Made by a program: the position numbers and the translations under genes. From Kondoa malvinella (Eukaryota; Basidiomycota; Agaricostilbomycetes; Agaricostilbales; Kondoaceae), in assembly GCA_039545315.1 (NCBI GenBank), contig BCIM01000003.1, positions 859,799 to 923,798 on the forward strand: 64,000 nt of DNA. The letters run 5' to 3'. Below are positions 26,205-27,668 of this stretch, in pieces. Within the stretch, counting starts at the first letter, position 1; each line of letters opens with the position of its first letter. The notes beneath the pieces were generated by a model. That model did not search any database, was not told the origin of the DNA, and worked only from the letters and a program-made list of their open reading frames with translations.

Positions 26205-27668
26205 ATGAAGGCTCTCATTCTTGTCGGCGGTGAGCGCTGTCGTACTTTCGCGTTGTATACCGCGGCTAATTCATGCAATCCCAAGGTTTCGGTACTCGCC
26301 TCAGGCCTCTCACTCTTACGCTACCTAAGCCATTAGTCGAGTTTGCAAACAAGCCTATGATCTTGTGAGGACATCAAGAAACAACATAGAAATGCGCTTA
26401 TGTGTGGTTAAAATAGGCATCAAATTGAAGCATTAGTAGCGGTCAGCTAAATATTGATTTATGAAGGACTACTGCTGATGCTGGATGTAGGCCGGCGTCA
26501 AGGATGTTGTTCTCGCTGTCAACTACAGACCTGAAGTCATGGTTGCTTTGCTGGGCAAGCTCGAGGAGAAATACGGCATCAAGATTACTTTCTCTGTCGA
26601 GAGCGAACCTCTCGGAACGGGTGCGTGATACAGGTGGTAGTAGCTCGCAGTCACTCATGTATCGCACAGCTGGTCCGCTCGCTCTAGCGAAAGAAGTCTT
26701 GGGCAAGGACGATTCACCTTTCTTTGTTCTCAACTCGGACGTCATCTGCTCTTACCCCTTTGAGGCTCTCCGAGACTTTCATCTCAACCACGGCAACGAA
26801 GGTACCATCATGGTGCGCCAGATCTAAGCTTTATGCTATAGAACTGACATTTTCACCTACAGGTAACCAAAGTCGACGAGCCATCAAAGTACGGTGTTGT
26901 TGTGCAATACCCAGGCAAGACTATGATCGACCGCTTTGTAGAAAAGCCACAAGAATTCGTTGGCAACCGTATCAACGCCGGTATCTATATTTTCAACCCT
27001 TCCGTCCTCAAGCGTATCGAGCCAAAACCCACTTCTATCGAGAAGGAGACCTTCCCAGAGCTCGCCAACGACAAGCAATTGCACGCTATGGACCTAGAAG
27101 GATTCTGGATGGATGTTGGTCAACCTAAAGATTTCCTTTCCGGCACTTGCCTCTACCTTTCTTACCTCACTTCACAAAACTCGAAACTCCTCACACCAGC
27201 TTCGCAGAACCCTTACGTTCACCAAGGCAACGTCATGATTGACCCTTCAGCGACCATTGATCCTTCCGCTGTTATTGGACCAAATGTTGTTGTTGGACCA
27301 AGATGTGTGATTGGTGCGGGTGTTCGTCTGCAGAGATGCGTCATTATGGAAGGTGCCAGGGTCAAGGATCACGCTTGGATTAAGAGTTCGATCATTGGTT
27401 GGAACTCGACCGTCGGTAGATGGGCTCGCGTGGACAACACTACCGTGCTTGGAGACGACGTGAGCATCAAGGACGAGCTCTTCGTCAACGGGGCCAGTGT
27501 TTTGCCGTTGCGTCGCGCTGTTGTTGTTGCTCAGGACATTGCTAATTCTCGATTTTGCGATTTACAGTCACAGTAATTGGCCCTTTTCCCTCATTTGGAA
27601 GCTTACTAACCCGTGCTACGCTAGAATCCATCTCGGTCTCCATCACTGCGCCTGCTATTGTCATGTAG
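26205..27668 (+). CDS. MPG1: Mannose-1-phosphate guanylyltransferase (GDP-mannose pyrophosphorylase)
   Basis: Makes GDP-mannose from mannose-1-P and GTP, feeding N- and O-glycosylation and GPI anchors (compare GPI10 in this window). Exon 1 is MKALILVGG; then FGTRLRPLTLTLPKPLVEF, the nucleotidyltransferase signature. Also seen: FFVLNSDVICSYPFEAL, FVEKPQEFVGNRINAGIY, FWMDVGQPKDFLSG, and a C-terminal left-handed beta-helix of hexapeptide repeats (DPSATIDPSAVIGPNVVVG). The main ORF seems to end in LQSQ at 27576, but splicing at 27506, a 5-nt exon TCACA (27568-27572) and an exon at 27625-27668 rebuilds VLPHKSISVSITAPAIVM, the conserved end of this enzyme. A decayed second copy of that last exon follows at 27742. 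Confidence 0.95.
27568..27572 (+). other. 5-nt micro-exon of MPG1
   Basis: TCACA lies between an acceptor (TTTACAG) and a donor (GTAATT). Joined to the upstream exon ending in CC and the downstream exon starting AATCC, it encodes Pro-His-Lys-Ser, exactly the residues conserved at this spot in GDP-mannose pyrophosphorylases. No other use of GT/AG sites nearby gives the conserved end in frame. Confidence 0.8.

Follow-up and report, generated by a model that had tools for sequence, protein, structure and literature searches.

The locus analysed here raises the question of how the conserved C-terminus of an enzyme is encoded when the last long exon of its gene breaks off two bases into a proline codon and the uninterrupted reading runs into an unrelated tail. 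The locus lies within a window of 64,000 nucleotides of Kondoa malvinella (the whole stretch of DNA that was analysed), which belongs to a 19.09-Mb genome in 20 contigs. The explanation that we favour, with a probability of about 0.88, is that the mRNA of the gene is completed by a predicted 5-nt exon between two introns that are recognized by intron definition, and that a decayed copy of the last exon lies 3' of it.

The GDP-mannose pyrophosphorylase gene and its product

The gene for GDP-mannose pyrophosphorylase (mannose-1-phosphate guanylyltransferase, GMPP) occupies positions 26205..27668 of the plus strand, on which all features of the gene described below also lie. The spliced model encodes 364 aa in eight exons (25, 79, 25, 130, 143, 644, 5, and 44 nt) separated by seven introns, all of them GT-AG and 49-61 nt long. 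The product was identified as GDP-mannose pyrophosphorylase by sequence match, and its enzyme activity is predicted. Residues 1-364 of the query match the solved-structure chains 8yre_D (E 8.6e-144), 7x8j_A, and 7d72_K; this full-length match to solved-structure enzymes, together with the conserved C-terminal LPHK and the terminal I(V/I)M, places the protein in the beta type of GMPP. The alignment with the eukaryotic chains 7d72_K and 7x8j_A, which we take to be human GMPPB and Arabidopsis VTC1, covers residues 1-364 including the C-terminal VLPHK...I(V/I)M, and in comparison with these chains the protein is ordinary, its only unusual feature being the structure of the gene. In extracts of a study of Arabidopsis VTC1, the dimer interface is formed by the C-terminal beta-helix domain alone, and about one third of the activity is left after loss of 139 C-terminal residues (PMC9168903).

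Over the full length, the product is 98% identical to the JGI protein P0001 and 83% identical to P0003 of Cystobasidium minutum, and the closest among the relatives listed are the JGI proteins P0001 (358/364 residues identical) and P0002 (330/364). Taken by itself, this protein would point to a basidiomycete of the Pucciniomycotina, probably of the Cystobasidiomycetes, the class of Cystobasidium. A remote match on contig C6, with 34-35% identity in two pieces, may be a GMPPA-type paralogue. The search for relatives' DNA on viral contigs gave one locus only, at 26% identity, and on bacterial contigs the best 80 of 254 relatives were all bacterial (28-33% identity). Elsewhere in the window, ORFs 15-2261, 5075-7591, 41731-42711 (+), and 46477-48249 (-) carry the Pfam families FAD_binding_1, RNB, E1-E2_ATPase, and Aft1_HRA/Aft1_OSA; six of the ten window ORFs scanned had no Pfam match, and Rfam at gathering thresholds gave 0 matches over the window.

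A predicted five-base exon at the C-terminus

Exon 6 (644 nt, 26863..27506) ends in ...GTTTTGCC, two bases into the Pro codon. It is followed by intron 7 (61 nt, 27507..27567) with the donor GTTGCG, a branch-like GCTAAT at 27541-27546, and the acceptor TTTACAG; by the micro-exon TCACA (exon 7, 5 nt, 27568..27572); by intron 8 (52 nt, 27573..27624) with the donor GTAATT, a branch-like TACTAAC at 27604-27610, and the acceptor GCTAG; and by the last exon (exon 8, hereafter A; 44 nt, 27625..27668), which starts with AATCC, encodes (K)SISVSITAPAIVM, and ends in the stop codon TAG. The CC at the end of exon 6, the T-CAC-A given by TCACA, and the AA of the last exon assemble into the Pro-His-Lys codons of LPHK. 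The joined exons 6-8 then read VLPHKSISVSITAPAIVM, for a total of 364 aa.

The initial annotation had proposed this exon, and its coordinates proved exact (exon 6 end at 27506, TCACA between TTTACAG and GTAATT, the TACTAAC, and AATCC at 27625). Its claim that the join completes the conserved C-terminus of GMPP is supported: the restored LPHK is present in 120/120 of the relatives listed (the best 120 of 6538 proteins above the cut). In five alignments of the 98 matches to solved chains, LPHK was found in four and LPNK in one (7whr). The unspliced reading, as had also been said, stops after RFCDLQSQ at 27576, and with a C-terminal score of -45.7 this end was rejected.

We then enumerated the possible chains of GT-AG introns (up to two introns, 27499-27918) on protein score, using a C-terminal profile built from 118 of the 120 tails, with P0001 and P0002 left out. 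The micro-exon chain ranked first of 476 with a score of 53.9, followed by the best one-intron chain at 36.1, and among the enumerated chains the full VLPHK...AIVM at 364 aa was obtained only with the micro-exon. In a second enumeration of GT-AG chains, other ends of exon 6 and up to three introns were allowed and splice-site terms were added, the splice-site weights in the combined score being rounded values of an intron count over 264 kb of the genome. The micro-exon chain was again first, of 399, at 187.5, and the best chain lacking the micro-exon reached 165.1; no GT-AG chain with another exon 6 end or with up to three introns outscored it by using better donors.

The arrangement is also rare by chance. 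When 27507-27622 was dinucleotide-shuffled and exon 8 left in place, with GT-AG chains free and donor strength unweighted, 53.9 was reached in 2/3849 cases; shuffling of everything 3' of exon 6, likewise with donor strength unweighted, reached it in 0/3551. The pattern AG-NCAYA-GT has 16 occurrences in 528 kb (both strands of 264 kb of the genome), and the extended pattern CTRAY-N(3-24)-YAG-NCAYA-GT, which was written to fit this site, has one match in the 528 kb, namely this site. TCACA has the features of an internal micro-exon, being short, placed between AG and GT, and flanked by neighbours of compatible phase; in usage, as given in extracts of PMC11121469, micro-exons are usually <=36 bp. 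The actual inclusion of TCACA in the mRNA is a part of the best explanation that we infer from these sequence data.

The protein P0001 may serve as evidence from a transcript. It reads VLPHKTISVSITAPAIVM (VLPHKT...AIVM), and because its source contig of 1265 nt is shorter than the 1464-nt unspliced gene of K. malvinella, that contig is probably a spliced transcript, if the introns are the same. P0001 differs from the GMPP product at six residues, four of which fall within 340-352 (13 residues), near the splice region of the micro-exon.

Other features of the region were also considered. No stable RNA structure was found around the micro-exon (z +1.95; 198/200 shuffles fold at least as well), and a possible GGGCCA/TGGCCC pairing bridges exon 6 and intron 8. 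An origin of intron 7 from a repeat found no support: in a search that passed over simple repeats and very common words, the 280-nt query had no genomic match at E 0.001 apart from its own locus.

Weak donors and the route of splicing

The strongest evidence against a simple micro-exon reading is the weakness of its donors. Neither GTTGCG nor GTAATT carries a G at +5. GTTGCG has a score of -11.9, which puts it in the lowest 0.3% of GT sites across the window; GTAATT, with T at +5, scores -1.3 (62nd percentile of the window GT sites). The five other GMPP introns have +5 G and donor scores between 3.5 and 7.8, from a matrix that left this gene out. All GT sites listed in 27484-27526 have negative donor scores. 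The first donor matrix (225 3' ends) exaggerates the penalty at +5, since it puts +5 G at 98%, compared with ~82% in a larger count of 970 strong 3' ends from 264 kb of the genome. Among the excess introns in these 264 kb, ~284/345 have +5 G and ~61/345 are without it, so that donors of this kind are an existing minority. Neither hexamer is in excess at intron distance in the 264 kb (GTTGCG 6 vs 5.8 expected, GTAATT 0 vs 3.6 expected). Agreement of donors with the genome consensus is an expectation of quality and no strict defining feature of a micro-exon, and its lack here lowered our confidence. Exon 8, for its part, is intact and its residues are those of P0001 apart from S352T, so some splice presumably joins exon 8 to exon 6.

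In genomes with short introns, introns are recognized one by one (intron definition), and a 5-nt exon is therefore no obstacle in principle. The route that we infer here is intron definition with sequential removal. The introns of 61 and 52 nt would each be recognized as a unit, the size of the exon going unmeasured. Simultaneous recognition would be unneeded: one intron would be removed first, TCACA would thereby be joined to a longer exon, and the crowding would be relieved. The product would then have both the conserved LPHK and, in its left-handed beta-helix domain, the C-terminal AIVM. The initial annotation had gone further in seeing in such an exon a question about exon definition by this spliceosome. 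As a general question this was overstated, because the introns here, at 49-61 nt, suit intron definition, and exons of 1, 6, 8, and 20 nt have already been published from fungi.

As both donors lack +5 G, splicing is possibly inefficient or regulated, and it is reasonable to suppose from the sequence that the weak donors would make splicing at the micro-exon slow or adjustable. Skipping of the 5 nt, or keeping of intron 7, intron 8, or both, changes the tail of the protein. One could go on to suggest a regulated step in which introns 7 and 8 are spliced poorly or stay in, so that a part of the mRNA would encode the tail ...LPLRRAVVVAQDIANSRFCDLQSQ or frameshifted tails and the amount of active enzyme would fall. 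The absence of +5 G from both donors and the changed tails of skipped or retained forms would suit such a step, but any weak intron can be expected to leave retained forms, regulated or not; we consider it unlikely on the present sequence evidence, at odds of perhaps one in five. It would be compatible with the predicted micro-exon as the best explanation, the micro-exon then being part of a switch.

A second, probably decayed copy of the last exon

The last exon recurs at 27742..27784 in a second copy, hereafter exon B. It has a branch-like GCTGAC at 27725-27730, the acceptor TTCTTACAG, and the same phase as exon A, and it is one base shorter. The likeness of A and B (local score 40.5) was reached by 0/5000 shuffles (highest 37.0), 0/585 window pieces, and 0/2385 genome pieces, which is indicative of homology of the neighbouring exons beyond chance. 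Of the two tandem copies only A has an intact frame: the shortening of B by one base, as assembled, shifts the frame, so that translation from the micro-exon into B continues to 434 aa, and the tail of this product had 0 matches among 31 database candidates. By codon position, the changes between A and B number 1, 2, and 9 over 14 aligned codons including the stop (Fisher p = 0.0006), the first base of the first codon coming from the micro-exon and being identical by construction. Such an excess of third-position changes is what one expects of two exons that both went on coding for a time after the duplication. With its own acceptor and the same phase, the tandem copy was probably once an alternative terminal exon that has since decayed, as far as the sequence indicates, and the one-base difference could conceivably be an assembly error.

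Joint duplication of the micro-exon and intron 8 with exon B found no support, as the stretch before B is unlike the intron 7-8 region (352/500 and 923/2000 shuffles, and 878/1884 real stretches, were as good). The 3' flanks of A and B showed no likeness (248/500 shuffles as good). An AG-TTTTC-GT with a 5-nt core at 27687-27691 is spaced before B about as TCACA is before A; its flanks showed no similarity pointing to a shared origin with TCACA.

Roughly one chance in eight, in our estimate, falls to the possibility that both copies are in use, either as two live terminal exons, the one-base difference of B being an assembly error or adaptive, or through splicing of A to B. The latter could proceed from a donor-like GTAGGA (27665..27670, matrix score 5.5) lying across the stop of exon A, and would yield ...APAIVIVCLSFDHRSAIVM. 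The acceptor, branch-like site, and phase of B, as well as the distribution of changes over codon positions, speak for use of both, and a join of A to B would keep the frame and stop after AIVM; against this stand the out-of-frame product of the micro-exon and B as assembled, with its unmatched tail, and the C-termini of P0001 and P0002, both of which are A-like. The basidiomycete GMPP entries P0008, P0023, P0029, and P0096 have odd tails after or instead of the terminal IVM, so the annotation of the last exon is possibly wrong in other species too.

The alternative of a single 113-nt intron

While the initial annotation was right about the micro-exon, it overlooked the weak donors, the second copy of the last exon, and a rival in frame with one intron. 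Five bases 3' of 27507 there is a competing donor, GTCGCG (27512..27517), which together with the acceptor at 27624 gives an in-frame LPLQ. Exon 6 is then extended by GTTGC, a single intron of 113 nt (27512-27624) replaces the micro-exon and its two introns, and the chain reads VLPLQSISVSITAPAIVM. Such a transcript, whether as the main form or as a minor isoform, would have the equal length of 364 aa in frame, would need one intron instead of two, and would share the last acceptor and the good branch-like TACTAAC with the micro-exon chain. Nevertheless, we regard it as very improbable. It replaces the HK of the LPHK found in 120/120 relatives listed, and a search with the region of the LPLQ tail gave 2 matches among 4 candidates, both with LPHK, and no LPLQ relative. 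Its donor is no better than the one it competes with (GTCGCG likewise scores -11.9) and is barely enriched in the 264 kb (4 vs 3.2 expected). An intron of 113 nt is unusual: over 264 kb the intron-length signal covers 45-64 nt, strongest at 45-59 and with a shoulder in the 60-64 range, which is close to the 52 and 61 nt of introns 8 and 7 and well short of 113. With splice-site terms, the chain scores 165.1 vs 187.5, 22 bits lower, and it would make the presence of TCACA between AG and GT a coincidence (2/3849 shuffles).

The donors at 27507 and 27512 are equally weak and five bases apart, and the use of 27512 offsets the skipping of the 5-nt exon exactly in frame. Since the one-intron model gives the right length with LPLQ, such an annotation error would pass length checks.

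Comparison with known fungal micro-exons

Micro-exons as short as 1 nt have already been published from fungi, and the 5-nt exon of GMPP adds another. It is unusual in that two weak donors occur together with a compensating donor five bases off and a decayed duplicate of the last exon. A close parallel in the extracts of the papers cited here is the 1-nt exon of the Fusarium CYP621A P450 genes, which has RNA reads and is missed by most gene models, and whose authors propose that cryptic exons were adopted to rescue conserved motifs (PMC12940212). As in GMPP, an ultra-small internal exon that is not a triplet restores the phase within a conserved motif and was inferred first by conservation; the Fusarium case, however, concerns 1 nt of an ascomycete P450 with 18 RNA reads and ~20 orthologues, whereas the present exon comprises 5 nt of a basidiomycete sugar-nucleotide enzyme and is known from sequence alone (PMC12940212). 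An 8-nt exon is given for Phanerochaete in extracts of the same paper (PMC12940212). The P450 genes of Phanerochaete chrysosporium, as described in extracts of PMC1184071, resemble the present case in being from a basidiomycete and in having short introns (45-55 bp there) and very short exons, but they belong to another gene family and the shortest exon stated is 6 bp (PMC1184071). In the 20-nt switch of Trichoderma virens Xlr2, inclusion of a micro-exon likewise decides the reading of the protein; its condition-dependent inclusion was shown, unlike that of the GMPP exon, which is read off the genome (extracts of PMC11121469). In the extracts of a Cryptococcus paper, the word 'microexon' occurs once, as a mapper setting (PMC3990503). 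A non-exhaustive search of titles and starts of abstracts found no paper on a GMPP micro-exon and none on duplicated terminal exons in fungi.

Biological meaning

Taken to its furthest, the end of the gene might be a splice switch that tunes the supply of GDP-mannose through a weak-donor 5-nt exon, a compensating donor, and two terminal exons, a proposal that we hold to be a long shot. If it were true, the donors would have been selected to be weak, and LPHK and LPLQ would alternate at the same length in this yeast lineage. The predicted micro-exon itself provides a test case for how small introns are recognized when both flanking donors are poor, and it suggests that even an enzyme so highly conserved, with a role in basic metabolism, can hinge on a five-base exon.
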